Source of the DNA: Bradyrhizobium sp. PSBB068
GTDB taxonomy: Bacteria; Pseudomonadota; Alphaproteobacteria; Rhizobiales; Xanthobacteraceae
Length of the DNA: 64,000 bases
Direction: 5' to 3'
Assembly: GCA_016839165.1 (NCBI GenBank)
Contig: CP069300.1
Span: forward strand, 2,914,001 to 2,978,000
A model generated the notes under the pieces. The model was not told where the DNA came from. It did not search any database and worked only from the letters and a program-made list of their open reading frames with translations. Below are positions 6,389 to 62,905 of the stretch, piece after piece. The position numbers and the translations under genes are program-made. How positions within the stretch are numbered: position 1 is the first letter of the stretch; every line of letters begins with the position of its first letter.

Positions 6389-6988
6389 TCACGGCTCCTT
6401 CTTGAACAAATCCTGGAAGATGAGCGGGCCCCAAACGCGGCCGCGTGCGTGCACGAGCGCGCCACCCTCGTTGAACTTTCCGAGCTTGACGGGTGCGAAC
6501 CCGAGTTGCTTCGCCAGGGCCGCCACGGGGGCGATCGTGTCGTCGTCGTCACCAGACAGAAAGACCACCCGGTGGCCGCCCTCGACGATCGGATCGGCAG
6601 CGAGCTTCGCCGCAATCAGGTGATTGAAGCCCTTCACGTAACTGGCGCCGGCGAACGCCTTCGCGGCGAAGGCGGAGGACGGAAGACCGTCAAGCTCCTC
6701 AGGCGGAAGCAACGCGTTCATCGCGTCGATCACCGTCTTACCTTGCCAGTCCGGCAGCGCCTTCGCGACCTCGCGATGCTCCTCGAACGGGACAGCCAGG
6801 ATGATCGTGTCGGCCGCGAGTGCGTCCCGCAGCGATCTGGCGACAACCGTGGGGCCGATCGCCTGGGCCTGCGGCGCCAACGCCTCGGGCGGCCGGCGGC
6901 TTGCGACGGTCACGTCGATGTTCTTGCGGGCGAACGCCTTGGCAAGAGCCTGGCCGATCTTGCCGAATCCTATAATCGCGTAGCTCAT
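6389..6988 (-). CDS. NADPH-dependent F420-reductase-like NAD(P)-binding protein
   Basis: This 199-residue protein begins with a Rossmann motif (IIGFGKIGQALAKAFARK), followed by TVASRRPPE for NADP phosphate recognition. It continues with TIILAVPFEEHREVA, KTVIDAMNAL and KGFNHL, as in the NADPH:F420 oxidoreductase/NADP-binding family (F420_oxidored). Many rhizobial members do not use F420 and probably act as NADPH-linked reductases of unknown substrate. It lies 39 bases downstream of the SDR gene on the same strand, so the two are likely co-transcribed under the divergent LysR gene. Confidence 0.82.
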   Translation of the reverse strand: MSYAIIGFGKIGQALAKAFARKNIDVTVASRRPPEALAPQAQAIGPTVVARSLRDALAADTIILAVPFEEHREVAKALPDWQGKTVIDAMNALLPPEELDGLPSSAFAAKAFAGASYVKGFNHLIAAKLAADPIVEGGHRVVFLSGDDDDTIAPVAALAKQLGFAPVKLGKFNEGGALVHARGRVWGPLIFQDLFKKEP

Positions 6989-7027
6989 GATGCTTCTCCG
7001 ATCCGTGTTGATATTGATTGTCCGCCT

Positions 7028-7762
7028 TCAAATGGCTGAGAAGCCGCCGTCGACAGACAGCTCCACCCCATTCACGAAGCTGGACTCGTCAGAAGCAAGG
7101 AACAGCGCGGCCGCGGCAATTTCCTCGGGACGCCCCATCGTTCCCCGCGGGATCAGGGATTCGAACATCCGCTTCGCCTCTTCGGTGAGGACCTGGTCCT
7201 GCATCGGTGTGGCGATCGGCCCCGGGCTCAGCACGTTCACCCGGATATTCCTGCCCTTCAGTTCGTTGAGCCAGGTGCGCGCGAATGAGCGCAATGCCGC
7301 CTTGCTCGCCGCATACACGCCGTAACCAGGAAAACCCTTCACCGAGGCAACTGACCCGGTCATGAAGATCGATCCGCCGTCGTTGAACAGCGGCAACGCC
7401 TTCTGAACCGTGAACAGCGTGCCGCGCGCATTCAGGCCGAAGGCCGCATCGAAATGCTGCTCGCTGATCTCGCCCAATGGGACGGCTTCGCCGATGCCGG
7501 CGCTCGCGTACAGGACGTCGATCCTGCCCTTTTCCCGCTTCACCGTATCGAACAGGCGGTCGAGGTCGTCGAGATTGGCCGCGTCGCCGCGCACGCCCGT
7601 CACGTTCCGGCCGATCAGCCTGACGGCCGCGTCGAGCGTCTCCTGCCTCCGGCCCGTGATGAAAACATAGGCGCCTTCTTCGACGAACCGCTTGGCGCTC
7701 GCCAGCGCCATGCCGCTCGATCCACCTGTGACGACTGCAACCTTACCTTCAAGCTTTCCCAT
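7028..7762 (-). CDS. SDR-family oxidoreductase
   Basis: This classical short-chain dehydrogenase has 244 residues, the usual size. It shows the cofactor motif VTGGSSGMALASAKRF, the NAG-like ASAGIGE, a catalytic Ser in FMTGSVAS, YxxxK in YAASKAAL, and the late SPGPIATPM motif. GITGRR after the second strand suggests NADP preference. The start at 7762 has a GGAG site in front (GAAGGAGAAGTC before ATG); the longer upstream frame has no domain. It is the first gene of a two-gene unit with the F420-reductase-like gene and is divergent from a LysR regulator. Confidence 0.88.
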   Translation of the reverse strand: MGKLEGKVAVVTGGSSGMALASAKRFVEEGAYVFITGRRQETLDAAVRLIGRNVTGVRGDAANLDDLDRLFDTVKREKGRIDVLYASAGIGEAVPLGEISEQHFDAAFGLNARGTLFTVQKALPLFNDGGSIFMTGSVASVKGFPGYGVYAASKAALRSFARTWLNELKGRNIRVNVLSPGPIATPMQDQVLTEEAKRMFESLIPRGTMGRPEEIAAAALFLASDESSFVNGVELSVDGGFSAI

Positions 7763-38631: not shown

Positions 38632-38666
38632 AAAAAAAAGGCCCGGGCGCATGCGCGTCCGGGCCC
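38632..38666 (-). terminator. Rho-independent terminator downstream of rsr
   Basis: On the minus strand a GC-rich stem of about 11 bases (GCGTCCGGGCC side pairing with GGCCCGGGCGC, ATGC in the loop) is followed by eight Ts. It lies 18 bases after the rsr stop and should end the Y-RNA/rsr transcript before the beta-helix gene. Confidence 0.85.
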
Positions 38667-38684
38667 ATTGTTGTCGAGCAGGCG

Positions 38685-40010
38685 TCAGTGCATCGTCTGT
38701 TCCGACGCCGCGATCCAGGCGATGACGGCCTCGGAGAAGCCGTCGACCCGCGTCCACGGGCCGTGTCCGACGCCGTGCTGGTAGGACGCCACGTTGACCA
38801 TGTATCCGCGTCCCTTCGGGGCGGGCACCTGGTCGTGGCTCTGCTCGTCGGTGAAGACGATCAGGCGATCGCCCTTGCGGTCGATCTCCGTCACCGCCTT
38901 GCCGAGATACGTCCCGCCATGCGGCTGCGAGCCGATGATCGCATCGCGCAGCGCGAAGCCGCGGCGCGGCGGCAGCTTCACGACCTCATTGCTGAACGTG
39001 AAGATCTCCACCTCGTCGCAGACTTCGCGGGCGAGGATCGCAAGCCCGCAAGCCGCCTCCGCCCGCGTCATCTCGGACTGGGCCGAGAGCGGCGAGAACA
39101 TCGATCCCGACACGTCGATCAGGAGCCGCGTGCGGCCATCGAGCCGCGCGTAGTCCTTGACCGACTTCAGCATCGCTGCCTCGAGCTCCGGCTCGAAGTC
39201 CGGCGCATACCGCGCCACCGTGATGAAGCGGTAGGGCAGGATGCGGTCCGTCCGCATTGCGTCGATCGCCTCCGCGATGGTTCGGCGCGGCACCTCAGCC
39301 TTCTGCATCAGGCGCAGGTTGCGGAGCAGCGCCAGCCCGCCGAGCCGGTTCTTGGCGATCAGGCGCTCGAAGGTTCCACGCTTGTCCTTGCCGGACGAGA
39401 GCGAAACCTCCCAGGTGTCGGGCGAGGCCAGCTCGCCGTCGACGAGCTGCTTCCACACCTTCTCCTGCGCGGCATCCTTCGGCTTGGCGTGGACCAGGAA
39501 CAGCACGTCCTTGATCCGCACCGCGCCGTCGCGATCGTACTTCGCGAGCTGGTAGGCGTCGAACTTGGTCAGCGCCCGCGCCAGGCCCTTCTTGATCTGC
39601 GCCGAGACGGGCTGACGCTTGCGCTGCTGCTGCGGGCCGAGCGCATCCGCCCAGTAGATCGCAAGCAGCTCGGTCATCTCGTCGGGCCGCTGGATCACGC
39701 GAGCCAGCGTATCGGCAACGAGGCCGCGATGGGTCGGATGCCGCGCCATCTCGCGGACCACGAGCAGCGGCGCGTGCCTCAGCTTCATGGTCTCGCGCGC
39801 AGCGATGGCGAGTTCGGCCGTCCGCTCGGGCGCGACCAGCGGCACCAGCGCCTTGATGCGATCGGCGATCGCGACGCCGTCCTCGTAGAACTGGTTCTCC
39901 CACAGGAGGCAGTTCAGCAGCGCGCGCCGCAGCTCCATCTCGGGCGTGAAGCGCTTGCTGCGCGCGCCCTCGCGGGTGAAGGCGCGCATGATCTTGTTGA
40001 TCGTGGCCAT
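38685..40010 (-). CDS. rsr: Ro60-type TROVE/vWA RNA-binding protein (Rsr)
   Basis: The 441-residue protein combines an alpha-helical TROVE (HEAT-like ring) region, about residues 1-285, with a C-terminal von Willebrand A domain. The vWA domain begins RTRLLIDVSGSMFSPLS, with the DxSGS MIDAS at 299-303. A later FTDEQSHDQ lies near the end. This is the bacterial Ro60 orthologue, which binds Y RNAs and misfolded RNA and can dock an exoribonuclease such as PNPase. ATG 40010 follows AAGGAGG. Four tandem Y-RNA-like modules lie directly upstream on the same strand, the nearest ending 44 bases before the start. No rtcB or rtcA gene is in the window. Confidence 0.9.
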   Translation of the reverse strand: MATINKIMRAFTREGARSKRFTPEMELRRALLNCLLWENQFYEDGVAIADRIKALVPLVAPERTAELAIAARETMKLRHAPLLVVREMARHPTHRGLVADTLARVIQRPDEMTELLAIYWADALGPQQQRKRQPVSAQIKKGLARALTKFDAYQLAKYDRDGAVRIKDVLFLVHAKPKDAAQEKVWKQLVDGELASPDTWEVSLSSGKDKRGTFERLIAKNRLGGLALLRNLRLMQKAEVPRRTIAEAIDAMRTDRILPYRFITVARYAPDFEPELEAAMLKSVKDYARLDGRTRLLIDVSGSMFSPLSAQSEMTRAEAACGLAILAREVCDEVEIFTFSNEVVKLPPRRGFALRDAIIGSQPHGGTYLGKAVTEIDRKGDRLIVFTDEQSHDQVPAPKGRGYMVNVASYQHGVGHGPWTRVDGFSEAVIAWIAASEQTMH

Positions 40011-40053
40011 GATGGCCTCCTTTCTGGGGGAGTATGGATTGGAAAGTGGAGCC

Positions 40054-40181
40054 GGGGAACTGGCGAGGCTGGACTGCCCTTTTAGGGCGTCGCACGCTCT
40101 TCCATCGAGCCACGGATGTATCATCCGGAAGGAATCGAACCTTCTGCCTTGCGATCCGAAGTAACAGCACTCTTCACCACC
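40054..40181 (-). ncRNA. YrlA-like Y RNA, module D (rsr-proximal)
   Basis: This 128-base module starts GGTGGTGAAGA, then GTTACTTCG, and ends TCGCCAGTTCCCC. TGGTGA can pair with TCGCCA to form the end helix expected to bind Ro. Inside, in order, are a T-arm (GAAGG-TTCGATT-CCTTC, 40128-40144), a six-base acceptor-like helix closed by an ATA loop (CGGATG/CATCCG, 40113-40127), a D-arm (GCTC-GATGGAA-GAGC, 40096-40110) and a GCCCT-AAA-AGGGC hairpin. T-arm before D-arm with a closed acceptor is a circularly permuted tRNA fold, as in YrlA. It has no CCA end and is not a tRNA gene. Confidence 0.82.
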
Positions 40182-40200
40182 TGCATTGGCGGACCACGAC

Positions 40201-40354
40201 CCGGGAACAGGCGATTGCTGAGACCCCGTTCGGCAGCTTACCCTGCCAGTCGGGAAGCGCTCTACCACTGAGCTACCGGTGCACATGACACCGGGCGGGA
40301 TTCGAACCCGCGACCTCTCGTTTCACAGACGATGTAACAGCGATCTTCACCACG
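40201..40354 (-). ncRNA. YrlA-like Y RNA, module C (tRNA mimic with anticodon-like arm)
   Basis: Starts CGTGGTGAAGA with GTTACATCG and ends TCGCCTGTTCCC. It carries the most complete tRNA mimicry of the four. There is an anticodon-like arm (TCGT-CTGTGAA-ACGA, 40318-40332; loop with U33 and GUG at 34-36), a T-arm (GCGGG-TTCGAAT-CCCGC, 40295-40311) and an acceptor-like helix closed on itself (CCGGTG...CACCGG, 40276-40294). A canonical D-arm (GCTC-AGTGGTA-GAGC, 40259-40273) and a branched 3' hairpin region complete it. The order of arms is circularly permuted relative to tRNA. Confidence 0.8.
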
Positions 40355-40373
40355 GGGCGTGGAAGGGGTCGGC

Positions 40374-40489
40374 GGGGAACAAGCGATGCTGTTGCTGCCC
40401 TTGCGGGCGAACCGCCTTTCGGCGTGCGGGCCTCGAACCCGCTCGGCGCCGTAGCGCCTTCCCACGAAGTAACAGTCATCTTCACCACC
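40374..40489 (-). ncRNA. Y-RNA-like module B (T-arm with tetraloop hairpins)
   Basis: Starts GGTGGTGAAGA with GTTACTTCG and ends TCGCTTGTTCCCC (116 bases). It has a GGCGC-TACG-GCGCC hairpin (40445-40458) and a T-arm (GCGGG-TTCGAGG-CCCGC, 40426-40442). The acceptor/D-arm part is replaced by two GNRA hairpins, CGCC-GAAA-GGCG (40413-40424) and GCCC-GCAA-GGGC (40397-40408). It shares the end blocks and T-arm with its neighbours but lacks a D-arm, so it is a divergent member. Confidence 0.7.
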
Positions 40490-40493
40490 GCCT

Positions 40494-40515
40494 GACCGGC
40501 GCATCTGCGCCGGTC
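40494..40515 (-). other. Perfect hairpin between Y-RNA modules A and B
   Basis: GACCGGCGCA and TGCGCCGGTC form a 10-base perfect inverted repeat with two central bases. It sits in the spacer between two RNA modules with no T-run after it. Separation or RNase III-type processing of a multi-module transcript is a plausible role. Confidence 0.5.
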
Positions 40516-40530
40516 GTCGATAGGTACGCT

Positions 40531-40705
40531 GGGGAACTGGCGATATCGGTGTCAGTGACGACAACACAGCCGCTCGCCTTGCGGACGAGAGACTGCGCCG
40601 GGCCGCACGCGGACCTTTGCCTGGCCGCATCCCGGTGCGTGTGTCACAGGCGGGATTCGAACCCGCTCTTTCCAGTGGAGCGAAGTATCCGACATCTTCA
40701 CCACC
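40531..40705 (-). ncRNA. Y-RNA-like module A (promoter-proximal, enlarged)
   Basis: Starts GGTGGTGAAGA, continues ATACTTCG and ends ATCGCCAGTTCCCC (175 bases). The T-arm is canonical (GCGGG-TTCGAAT-CCCGC, 40650-40666). After it come larger GC-rich hairpins, including GCGG...CCGC with a GG-containing loop that could act as a D-arm, and CTCG...CGAG with GCAA. The acceptor-like helix is not clear. End blocks and T-arm identify it with the other modules; the middle is expanded. Confidence 0.65.
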
Positions 40706-40948
40706 AGCGTCGGTTGAGCCGCAGTGATGCGGCAAACCGTTTTGAAAAATTTCGTCGCGGCGCTGTCGATGCGCCGCCGATTGCGAACTCCTCGGAGTCC
40801 GCTCTGCCATCGGTGTCCGGCTCATCGCCTCGTTCCCTCCGGCAGGCCCCGCGCACTTGGGCACGCGCGTCTCCGCGCGAGCCCCGGGATCCGGGTCTCC
40901 CGTTCCGGCTTGCGCCGGGCAATTCGAATGAGCCGTGCTGCGGACAAC
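40706..40948 (-). other. Leader region upstream of the Y-RNA cluster
   Basis: No protein motif is visible in any frame. On the minus strand there are several hairpins (GCGGCGC...GCGCCGC, CCGCA-TCAC-TGCGG, ACTCC-GAG-GGAGT) and an AT-rich AAATTTTTCAAAA stretch about 40 bases before module A. The last could belong to the promoter of the RNA cluster. I could not identify a convincing -35/-10 or sigma-54 site. Confidence 0.4.
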
Positions 40949-40983
40949 AAAAAAACCCTCCGGAGCACTTGGCTCGGGAGGGT
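40949..40983 (-). terminator. Rho-independent terminator upstream of the Y-RNA cluster
   Basis: On the minus strand ACCCTCC pairs with GGAGGGT around a 15-base loop, followed by seven Ts. It isolates the Y-RNA/rsr unit from the LysR gene upstream. It could also be the 3' end of a small RNA: two further hairpins lie just before it, GTCCG-N6-CGGAC at 40982-40997 and a 10-base stem at 41001-41023. Confidence 0.8.
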
Positions 40984-41000: not shown

Positions 41001-41023
41001 CGACCTCGCATTATGCGAGGTCG
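41001..41023. repeat. Perfect 10-base stem-loop (CGACCTCGCA / TGCGAGGTCG)
   Basis: A TTA (minus: TAA) loop separates perfect arms. With the neighbouring hairpin and terminator on the minus strand it forms a three-hairpin array in the 225-base spacer after the LysR gene. The rest of 41024-41208 shows no gene. Confidence 0.6.
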
Positions 41024-41208
41024 CTCCGATGAGCCGGGCACGCGCTACCGATCGGCCGCAGGCCGTTCGACAGTTGGCGGGATCTTTCAAATCCGTAGTG
41101 CATCATCTGGCTCATGTTTGATCGCGAACGGTGGTGCTCGCGAAGGTTGCGGGACATACGCCTCGCCGATGTCGATGTCAACAACGGAAAATGATGACGG
41201 CTGAAAAT

Positions 41209-42150
41209 TCAGCGCCGCTTGCGCGGCTTCGCTTTGCTCGCGGGCTTGCCGCCATGCGCGGCGATCCGCGTCAGCGCATCTGCAAACACGCGTGCGGCGG
41301 GGCCGAGCGGCTCGTCGAGCCGGCGCGCGAGATAGGCCTCCATTGCAAGCGATGCGTTGCGTCCGAGTGCGCCGGTCTCGACCCTCACCAGGCGGCGTTC
41401 GCTCAAGTCGCGCGCCACCTGCCAGATCGGCAGCCGGCCCCAGCCGAGCCCGGCCATGATCATGGCGTGCTTGGTGTCCTGGTTGCTGACCCTGCAAATC
41501 TGCGGCGAGAGGACGCCGAAGTTGCGGCCTTCCGACAACGGCGTCGGGTCCGACAGCACGATCTGCAGATGATCGGCGAGGTCGGCGACGCTCTTGTGGC
41601 CGCGGCGCGCGAGCGGATGGCTTGCGGAGGCGACAGCGATGATCTGCACGGAGCAGATCGCGTCGAGCGCGAGGCGGGGATCGCGAAAATCCTCCCCGAC
41701 CGTGACGGCGAGCGCGCTGCGCCGTTCGGTGAGGGCGGCGATCGGACCGCCCATCGGTTCGACCGCGAGCCGCACGCTCACCGATGGATAGGCCGCCCGC
41801 ATCTCCGTCAGCGCCGCGCCGACAGCGGCGATCGGAAACAGCGTGTCGACGACAACAGCGAGTTCCGATTCCACCCCGTCGCCAAGGCCGTGCGCCCGCG
41901 CCCGCATCGCGTCGACCCGGAGCAGGAGATCGCGCGCATTGCCGAGCAGCGCCTTGCCTTCGGCCGTCAGCACCGGGCGATGGCCGGAGCGGTCGAACAG
42001 CATGATGCCGAGCTCGGCCTCGAGGTTGGCGATGGCGTGGCTGACCGCGGACTGCACCCGCGCCAGCTTCGCCGCAGCGGCGCGAAAACTGCCGGTCTCG
42101 GCGATGGTGACGAAGACCCGGATCTGATCGAGTGTGAGGTTATCGAGCAT
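41209..42150 (-). CDS. LysR-family transcriptional regulator
   Basis: The 313-residue protein has the LysR HTH (GSFRAAAAKLARVQSAVSHAI, about residues 21-41), an effector domain, and a Lys/Arg-rich tail (KPASKAKPRKRR) not usual for the family. It is divergent from the MFS gene across a 96-base AT-rich spacer and probably regulates that gene. Confidence 0.87.
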   Translation of the reverse strand: MLDNLTLDQIRVFVTIAETGSFRAAAAKLARVQSAVSHAIANLEAELGIMLFDRSGHRPVLTAEGKALLGNARDLLLRVDAMRARAHGLGDGVESELAVVVDTLFPIAAVGAALTEMRAAYPSVSVRLAVEPMGGPIAALTERRSALAVTVGEDFRDPRLALDAICSVQIIAVASASHPLARRGHKSVADLADHLQIVLSDPTPLSEGRNFGVLSPQICRVSNQDTKHAMIMAGLGWGRLPIWQVARDLSERRLVRVETGALGRNASLAMEAYLARRLDEPLGPAARVFADALTRIAAHGGKPASKAKPRKRR

Positions 42151-62435: not shown

Positions 62436-62750
62436 TCAGCTGACCAGCTTCAGCCCGACGATGCCGGACACGATCAGCCCGATGCTTGCGAGCCGCATCG
62501 CGGTCGCGGGTTCGCCGAGAAGGATGATGCCGAGCGCCGCGGTGCCGACCGCGCCGATGCCGGTCCAGACCGCATAGGCGGTTCCGATCGGCAGCGTCTT
62601 CAACGCGATGCCGAGCAGGAGGATGCTGCCGGCCATCGCCGCCAGCGTCAGCACCGACGGCACCAGCCGAGAGAACCCCTCGGTGTATTTCAGCCCGATC
62701 GCCCAGCCGATCTCGAGCAGGCCTGCGGTGAACAGAATGGCCCAAGCCAT
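62436..62750 (-). CDS. gdx: SMR-family guanidinium exporter (Gdx/SugE-type)
   Basis: The 104-residue, four-helix protein has the SMR essential Glu in helix 1 ([20 protein letters not shown]) and the SugE/Gdx-type [20 protein letters not shown]. The GWAIGLKY form is typical of the Gdx branch, which exports guanidinium, rather than the EmrE drug branch. A two-hairpin guanidine-II riboswitch lies just upstream and supports this reading. GGAGGG precedes the ATG. Confidence 0.9.
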
Positions 62751-62769: not shown

Positions 62770-62817
62770 GCAGGGTCGTCCCCGCAGATGGTATGGTGAG
62801 GAGAAGGTCGTCCCTCT
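62770..62817 (-). promoter_or_regulatory. Guanidine-II (mini-ykkC) riboswitch
   Basis: On the minus strand two similar hairpins carry ACGA loops: AGAGGG-ACGA-CCTTCT (62802-62817) and GCGGGG-ACGA-CCCTGC (62770-62785), 16 bases apart. Paired stem-loops with ACGR loops define the guanidine-II class. The second hairpin ends 19 bases before the start codon of the exporter gene, close to its GGAGGG site, so ligand binding should expose or free the ribosome site. Confidence 0.85.
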
Positions 62818-62905
62818 CATGCCTATATGGGGTGGTGTGGCCACGGCGCATTGCGACAAAACGCCCTTGATTGCGCCCGTTTTCCCTGTCAAACGCTGCC
62901 CCGCC

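Follow-up and report, generated by a model that had tools for sequence, protein, structure and literature searches.

How a bacterium makes the protein and the several small RNAs of a Ro60–Y RNA particle together, and what signal governs their production, is the question raised by a locus of Bradyrhizobium sp. PSBB068 in which four tandem Y-RNA-like modules precede rsr, the gene for a Ro60 orthologue. The locus lies on the minus strand of a 64,000-nt stretch of CP069300.1 (hereafter the window, to whose numbering coordinates refer unless another locus is named) and is read from 41200 to 38600. After the end of a LysR-type gene at 41209 come a promoter-like element, a short upstream open reading frame (uORF) within an attenuator-like leader, a conserved structured RNA designated E2, the four modules, rsr and a hairpin. 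Comparison with related loci makes it probable that these parts form one translation-gated transcription unit for the particle. An earlier note on the same DNA, made from the sequence alone, had joined the modules and the Ro protein in one unit, a proposal now backed by structure, covariation and conserved synteny; the uORF, the switch and E2 had gone unnoticed.

The Y RNA array

The modules are described below in terms of an outer helix, P1, and an inner helix, P2, separated by an internal loop, together with tRNA-type arms. Individual loci and genomes of the comparison carry L and G numbers.

40526..40710, minus strand: Y RNA module 1 (GGATAC type), with P1, P2, a T-arm and its own ACCGGG..CCCGG domain, no D-arm found
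40371..40492, minus strand: Y RNA module 2, with P1, P2 and a T-arm only
40200..40356, minus strand: Y RNA module 3, with P1, P2 and a permuted tRNA-like domain (T-arm, closed acceptor, D-arm)
40051..40184, minus strand: Y RNA module 4, tRNA-like, its P1 with one mismatch in PSBB068

All four lie within about 2 nt of where they had first been placed, and the spans between their conserved end motifs are, for modules 1 to 4, 40703-40533, 40487-40376, 40352-40204 and 40179-40056. Searched against all 7.67 Mb of the genome, the 5' motif pattern has four matches, each of them at the rsr locus (control matches, 0), and a four-motif cluster is found in only 3 of 387 genomes of the class, with a TROVE gene adjoining each. 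Because the motif is unique to this locus within the genome and such clusters stand only beside TROVE genes, the array is not a product of chance.

A wider set was formed by the best 80 of 104 rsr relatives together with the window (81 loci), using at most 2 kb of upstream sequence per locus, or less where a contig ends. Modules with both ends are present at 79 of the 81 loci and total 264, their ends having been picked with the aid of P1; one module is found at 4 loci, two at 12, three at 19, four at 41 and five at 3, all minimum counts from which 19 5' motifs with no detected 3' end are excluded. The two loci with no modules (L104 and L106) both belong to other phyla, and a variant is visible by eye in L104. 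Within the genus, for which the earlier note had proposed a check of synteny, all 23 congeners with rsr at 80% identity or more carry two to four motifs within 1.5 kb of it, and 20 of them carry four. The idea that four Y RNAs for one Ro protein is unusual is correspondingly weak, with at least three modules at 63 of the 81 rsr loci and arrays also on viral contigs.

P1 lies just outside the motifs and was assessed at five positions in 258 unique modules with no pairing criterion in their selection. The five positions are paired in 94, 94, 99, 94 and 92% of modules, against shuffled means of 93, 66, 78, 52 and 73% at the same positions, and the mean run is 5.8 pairs versus 2.7 after shuffling. 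Exchanges such as GCCGG/CCGGC, GGCGG/CCGCC, GCTGG/CCAGC and GTCGG/CCGAC preserve the helix, and sliding the strands by 1-3 bases, a control that keeps relatedness, leaves 22-56% paired versus 95% in register.

P2 joins positions 8-15 of the 5' motif to the bases preceding GNNYGUUCC. Pair 10/t12 is formed in 97% of modules, versus 49% shuffled and 37-61% slid. For the whole helix, 233 of the 258 unique modules were counted, 25 having been set aside because their length or their 3' motif deviated, and it forms in 166 of the 233 (best of three registers, often with one bulged base), compared with 37 shuffled (maximum 53) under the same rule; modules with A or G before GTTCC stood outside both the P1 and the P2 tests. 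The outer pairs 13-15 in a fixed register are barely above shuffled, which is attributable to a 3' strand whose length varies by one base among modules. Free folding of window modules 1-3 yields P1, a bulged U, GG/CC and P2, and that of module 4 yields neither P1 nor P2. Comparative evidence of this kind indicates that the four modules are real, and that in each the outer and the inner helix covary while the loop between them is conserved.

The pairing that had first been drawn between the end blocks, TGGTGA with TCGCCA, fared less well. Six pairs are possible only in window modules 1 and 4; the inner five can form in 187 of 233 modules of relatives, with an invariant 5' side and no compensatory changes, and the six-pair count there is uninformative because the 3' pattern demanded C or T at the sixth place. 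The helices with support are instead P1, outside the motifs, and P2, where those 3' bases are paired in another way. Also considered and rejected (by eye) was a hairpin of GAAG with CUUC within the 5' strand, as CATC and CGTC variants retain GAAG.

Relation of the modules to YrlA and to tRNA

None of the four window modules reaches the gathering cut-off of the Rfam YrlA family (RF02553, 69 bits), nor does any match in 15 further loci. Below the cut-off, module 3 scores 42.9 bits and module 4 38.9 bits (E 6e-8 and 9e-7), and modules 1 and 2 have no listed match in the same search, so that the check proposed in the earlier note gave a mixed answer, with none of four at the gathering score but two of four beneath it. 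The canonical rsr-rtcB operon of the same class (L147) does match YrlA, at 73.6 bits. The modules are best regarded as divergent Y RNAs that fall short of the YrlA cut-off, and their paired ends with an internal loop, their Ro60 neighbour and the presence of at least one tRNA-like member would place them among bacterial Y RNAs in the wider sense.

The tRNA-type T-arm noted from the start for each module is seen in all four, and D-arms were found only in modules 3 and 4. Where both are present the T-arm comes before the D-arm, a permuted order likewise found in YrlA, in which the Ro stem takes the place of the anticodon arm. By pattern matching, T- and D-arms occur together in 139 of the 264 modules, a T-arm alone in 60 and neither in 65. 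No D-arm was matched in any of 49 GGATAC-type modules, which have a helix of their own with the exchanges CCGGG/CCCGG, CCGUG/CGCGG and CCGUG/CACGG (read off the alignment). YrlA itself is described as having D, T and acceptor arms and as being modified by DusA and TruB (PMC8394870).

Were the modules degenerate tRNA genes or tRNA-derived debris, the calls of tRNA-finding tools would be explained: ARAGORN reports a tRNA-His in module 3 (window 40287-40360), and Rfam reports tRNA in a module of L107 (3650-3717) and across two adjacent modules of L080 (3159-3301). The permuted order, the covariation of P1 and P2 and the fixed place beside rsr make such an origin barely credible. The ARAGORN call was set aside, as it fuses the 5' block of module 3 with the module's T-arm.

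The members of the array also tend to keep their places. Among the 117 best matches between loci with exactly four modules (taken from the 264 modules), 114 keep the position of the module within the array, so that they resemble long-established, separate lineages more than recent copies. Separately conserved lineages with different far ends lend some support to the earlier suggestion that the four RNAs might confer several specificities.

Two further arrays may be mentioned here. Variant arrays with UGGCGCAG occur in G470, with five motifs upstream of rsr, and G407 (L147:1-1044) has a canonical YrlA and, by eye, two more Y-like RNAs between rsr and rtcB, so that loci of the canonical class, too, seem to have more than one Y RNA.

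The Ro60 protein and a proposed common transcript

38685..40010, minus strand: rsr (Ro60 orthologue), 441 amino acids, TROVE plus vWA, by Pfam and structure match
38632..38666, minus strand: terminator-like hairpin with a T-run, 3' of rsr, read in the sequence (its stem is in the terminator scan, listed on the plus strand)

The reading of rsr as a Ro60-type gene is confirmed by a Pfam TROVE match of 53.4 bits (cut-off 23), and the vWA_Ro60 match of 24.5 bits lies just under its cut-off of 27.7; the product has the combination of TROVE and vWA domains that marks the Ro60/Rsr family. Its nearest solved sequences are the TROVE proteins 9l5y/9kop (E 4e-26). In the predicted model (predicted local distance difference test, pLDDT, 85; predicted template-modelling score, pTM, 0.64), the 13 best PDB matches are all Ro60, Rsr or TROVE entries, among them Ro60 of Thermus phage phiLo (9l5y), Rsr of D. 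radiodurans (2nvo) and vertebrate Ro60, with a best E of 3.8e-18. Template-modelling scores (TM-scores, by query) are only 0.39-0.45, so that the domains agree better than the whole protein does. No second Rsr was found in the PSBB068 genome. Another Bradyrhizobium, G037, has two Rsr homologues (50% and 49% identity) and lacks the E2 core.

It is plausible that the modules and rsr are made as one transcript that is then processed. Their arrangement, with all modules on one strand directly upstream of rsr and no same-strand terminator listed in between by the scan, would also suit a cis-acting 5' untranslated region through which Rsr, by binding Y-like folds of the rsr mRNA, restrains production of itself, several copies making a graded sensor. 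For such a sensor, however, the separately conserved far-end domains and the tRNA mimicry would be superfluous, and the Y RNAs of known systems are free RNAs (PMC8394870); we regard a purely cis-acting role as improbable.

The leader: uORF and predicted attenuator

Upstream of E2 the transcript would begin with a leader whose elements are as follows.

41153..41181, minus strand: putative sigma70 promoter, TTGACA-17 nt-TATGTC, with TTGAC kept in 17 of 18 aligned loci
41109..41116, minus strand: attenuator segment 1, CATGAGCC, just 5' of the uORF start; pairs with segment 2, with some covariation
41011..41103, minus strand: uORF for a leader peptide of 30 codons, MHYGFERSRQLSNGLRPIGSACPAHRSDLA, with a start ATG shared by all 18 loci of the alignment
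41023..41035, minus strand: attenuator segment 2, GGCTCATCGGAGC, within the uORF
40971..40982, minus strand: attenuator segment 3, CCCTCCCGAGCC, able to pair with segment 2 or segment 4
40949..40966, minus strand: attenuator segment 4 and T-run, the 3' half of the terminator

The whole attenuator spans 41116-40949 on the minus strand. Two collections were compared: an alignment of 18 loci over the 480 nt that precede module 1, which extends beyond the genus, and 64 rsr-linked leaders with E2, those read by script having been gathered by their E2 core. A uORF of 29-31 codons (40 in G470) is present in 63 of the 64, a tally made up of 59 of 60 by script together with L161, L162, L062 and L091; where several in-frame ATGs occurred, the one giving a length nearest 30 codons was chosen. 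Its stop is kept as a stop while its letters vary (TGA 34, TAA 10, TAG 9; n=53), and in 59 leaders chosen for an open uORF frame the other two frames of the same strand are open in 32 and 20. From the start of segment 2 (its GCTC) to the stop the distance is 21 nt in 53 leaders, out of 55 (of 59) in which it could be measured, and the stop adjoins the antiterminator strand.

Attenuators of the trp type are ribosome-mediated, and the parts that define them are found here, namely a leader ORF followed by mutually exclusive 1:2, 2:3 and 3:4 helices, all of which can form. The leader has, as predicted from its pairings and its conserved spacing, the architecture of a ribosome-mediated attenuator, and no further copy of the attenuator pattern was found in the PSBB068 genome. 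One of the two terminators that had been taken to bound the locus accordingly changes its meaning: the hairpin after rsr (38666-38632) stands, but the one at 40949-40983 ends the attenuator and is no boundary, because both the promoter-like element and the uORF precede it.

Leader-peptide attenuators of the same plan were also seen, by eye, before MATE genes (assigned by Pfam) in L066 (~6950-7050) and L092 (~7450-7560), where the MATE genes lie, respectively, some 1.7 and 2.2 kb 3' of rsr. The shared plan suggests a shared signal, possibly impaired translation.

The E2 RNA

40757..40919, minus strand: E2, conserved structured RNA, defined by alignment and covariation

E2 has no match in Rfam 15, and its distribution follows that of rsr closely. 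Its core occurs at 63 of 80 named loci and 2 of 12 further loci. Among 72 congeners, E2 (at most one mismatch) and rsr (80% identity or more) pick out one and the same set of 23; in all of these E2 lies within 1.5 kb of rsr, and the other 49 have no E2. Across the 387 genomes of the class it was found at four array loci and as one isolated one-mismatch match, in G175, which was treated as chance since it has neither a TROVE match nor, by script, such a terminator ahead of it.

Four helices, selected from 76 pairs predicted on the same alignment, comprise 25 pairs that are formed in 99.1% of cells; 10 of the 25 are changed on both sides, versus 3.0 when shuffled (0/500). The RNA also has long invariant stretches. 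Tentatively, and with rather less than even confidence, E2 may act in processive antitermination and keep Rho from the long, untranslated array; as alternatives it could be a small RNA in its own right or a component of the particle.

RtcR and RtcB

A different mode of control is established in Salmonella, in which RtcR activates the rsr-yrlBA-rtcBA operon and senses tRNA 5' halves (PMC7790460). RtcR (PF06956) was found in none of 24 genomes with rsr and E2, PSBB068 included, the set being 22 of the 23 congeners (G016 was left out) plus G122 and G470; control by RtcR is thus not possible in PSBB068 as far as PF06956 tells. It does lie within 1.5 kb of rsr in three relatives of the class (G153, G330 and G407), all lacking the E2 core and the array motif, and G153, with RtcR, belongs to the same genus as G470, with the attenuator. 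RtcB likewise has no match in the PSBB068 genome, which reduces the unit there to E2, the Y RNAs and Rsr. With neither an RtcR gene nor rtcB, the locus does not qualify as an RtcR-regulated RNA repair operon.

In relatives, an RtcB-like gene is present near rsr in 45 of 91 fetched loci. Fourteen of these genes are 60-100% identical to that of L066 (Pfam RtcB), and 31, assigned by identity, are 28-32% identical to it. At 30 loci, mostly of Bradyrhizobium, the divergent RtcB-like gene (about 30-32% identity) usually lies about 350 nt 3' of rsr.

Proposed mechanism and alternatives

In a translation-gated unit, transcription would start near 41145 and a ribosome would translate the 30-codon uORF; on reaching the stop it would cover segment 2, so that the 3:4 terminator forms and transcription ends before the particle genes. 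Early stalling or slowing, caused by damaged or uncharged tRNA or by ribosome inhibitors, would leave segment 2 free to pair with segment 3, and in the absence of the terminator polymerase would read E2, the four Y RNAs and rsr and, in many relatives, an RtcB-like gene as well. If no ribosome initiated, segments 1 and 2 would pair and the unit would be off. The long transcript would be cut into separate Y RNAs, and Rsr would bind the common end of each (P1, the UGGUGAA/YGUUCC loop and P2), while the differing far ends, a tRNA mimic in modules 3 and 4, a T-arm in module 2 and a special domain in module 1, could recruit or block different partners, by analogy with the tethering of PNPase by YrlA.

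A more far-reaching version, which we put forward cautiously and hold to be somewhat less probable than its opposite, is that in this repair operon of Ro60 and Y RNAs (joined by RtcB in relatives) the ribosome has replaced RtcR as the sensor of damaged tRNA, with a uORF attenuator that responds to translation trouble by releasing E2, an undescribed class of structured RNA, and Y RNAs that serve as exchangeable adaptors through which a single Ro ring reaches several partners.

Several observations weigh against these proposals. A consensus scan flags neither the putative promoter nor the attenuator hairpin, and the second promoter hexamer is poorly conserved among the 18 aligned loci. Constraint on the peptide is weak, with a ratio of nonsynonymous to synonymous change (pN/pS) of 0.78 over codons 2-22 versus 0.95 and 1.04 in shifted frames, and no amino-acid run in the uORF would explain a stall; codons 23-30 give 0.23, but they overlap segment 2. 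Weak peptide constraint fits a sensor of ribosome position better than a sensor of peptide sequence. Segments 1:2 are paired in 87% of cells, with both sides changed in 7 cells versus 2.2 shuffled (0/500), a control inflated, like the other shuffles, by the close relatedness of many rows; by the two measures that relatedness affects least, the number of pairs with changes on both sides (3 versus 1.8; 129/500 shuffles) and the number of pair types (108/500), they are not unusual. Comparison speaks for P1 and P2, the uORF, the linkage of E2 with rsr and the persistence of the module lineages, and for the 1:2 helix in part. Segments 2:3 are paired in 93% of cells, which does not exceed the shuffled level, and none shows a change on both sides; compensation was seen only by eye, in L091 (GGTTC/GAACC) and G470 (GGGGC..GAGAGG/CCTCTC..GCCCC). 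The E2 core was not found at 17 of the 80 named loci, some of them on short contigs. Finally, RtcR is absent also from five of eight other Rsr-bearing genomes (G037, G079, G246, G356 and G467), in which E2 likewise was not found as far as the scans tell, so that its absence is not special to the E2/attenuator type.

Some of these points would be natural if the leader were a ligand-binding riboswitch or a protein-binding switch, with E2 perhaps as the sensor and the uORF incidental: the long invariant stretches of E2 resemble a binding pocket, the peptide is weakly conserved and 2:3 shows no covariation in the alignment. E2, however, lies 3' of the terminator and so has no direct say in termination, and the start and stop of the uORF and its spacing to segment 2 are kept, which leaves such a switch unlikely in our judgement. 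The earlier picture of a constitutive multi-Y locus between two terminators, with no regulated read-through, can likewise draw on real features, in that the array, the Ro protein and both hairpins exist and one locus, L034, has its array but lacks both the uORF and the conserved upstream part, an exception that also counts against a gated unit. Constitutive expression sits poorly with an upstream hairpin preceded by the promoter-like element and by a uORF that nearly every leader retains, and with the near-constant distance from segment 2 to the stop; we give it little credence. Translational gating of the whole unit remains the reading that we prefer.

Comparison with known systems

With YrlA and the Salmonella rsr-yrlBA-rtcBA operon the locus shares Y RNA genes beside a Ro60 orthologue, an end-pairing stem, a permuted tRNA-like domain, a UACNUCG that follows the inner helix, as it does in L147 with its canonical YrlA, and, in about half of the fetched loci, the RtcB-like neighbour noted above. 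It departs from them in its P1/loop motif, which is UGGUGAA/YGUUCC here and of the GGCGAAUG type there, in scores under the Rfam cut-off, in placing four modules upstream of rsr, in lacking RtcR and in having a leader attenuator and E2. The D. radiodurans Rsr–Y RNA–PNPase complex (RYPER) offers the same Ro60 fold and a Y RNA that would be expected to gate and tether; unlike it, the present locus has several Y RNAs with different far ends, and its Rsr has 441 amino acids compared with 496 residues in the 2nvo chain. Trp-type and antibiotic-response attenuators share the uORF, the exclusive 1:2, 2:3 and 3:4 pairing and the stop beside segment 2, but the leader here has no run of codons for a single amino acid, and its target is a ribonucleoprotein of RNA quality control.

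Phages and viruses provide another parallel, the Ro60 of Thermus phage phiLo (9l5y) being a top structure match of Rsr. In the viral collection, L174 encodes a 461-aa TROVE protein beside two motifs and L180 has four modules; no exact E2 core was found in the viral contigs, and some of their modules are mini Y RNAs lacking the tRNA-like part (L176, L177, L179 and L180; about 56 nt, P1 and P2 only).

Y RNAs beside Ro60 and their mimicry of tRNA are already known. A 2014 abstract by Chen reportedly counts more than 250 species of bacteria and phages with Y RNAs close to Ro60, at least one per species being tRNA-like, which implies that loci with more than one Y RNA are probably known as well. 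Among the literature matches listed (titles and abstract openings), none describes a Ro locus with an attenuator, a leader peptide or E2, which does not prove their absence; judged by those listings, the substitution of a leader-peptide attenuator for RtcR, the RNA E2 and the persistence of four lineages appear to be new. If correct, the proposal would connect RNA quality control in soil bacteria with translation stress, and a leader that gauges ribosome progress would provide a handle on which inhibitor or tRNA damage switches the unit on. Natural sets of three to five Y RNAs per Ro protein would, in addition, allow a test of whether the far end sets the partner.

Other features of the window

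Elsewhere in the window, a Guanidine-II riboswitch lies at 62771-62819 on the minus strand (34.4 bits, cut-off 32), and directly 3' of it a 104-aa ORF (62436-62750) encodes what looks like a putative membrane protein of the small multidrug-resistance type.

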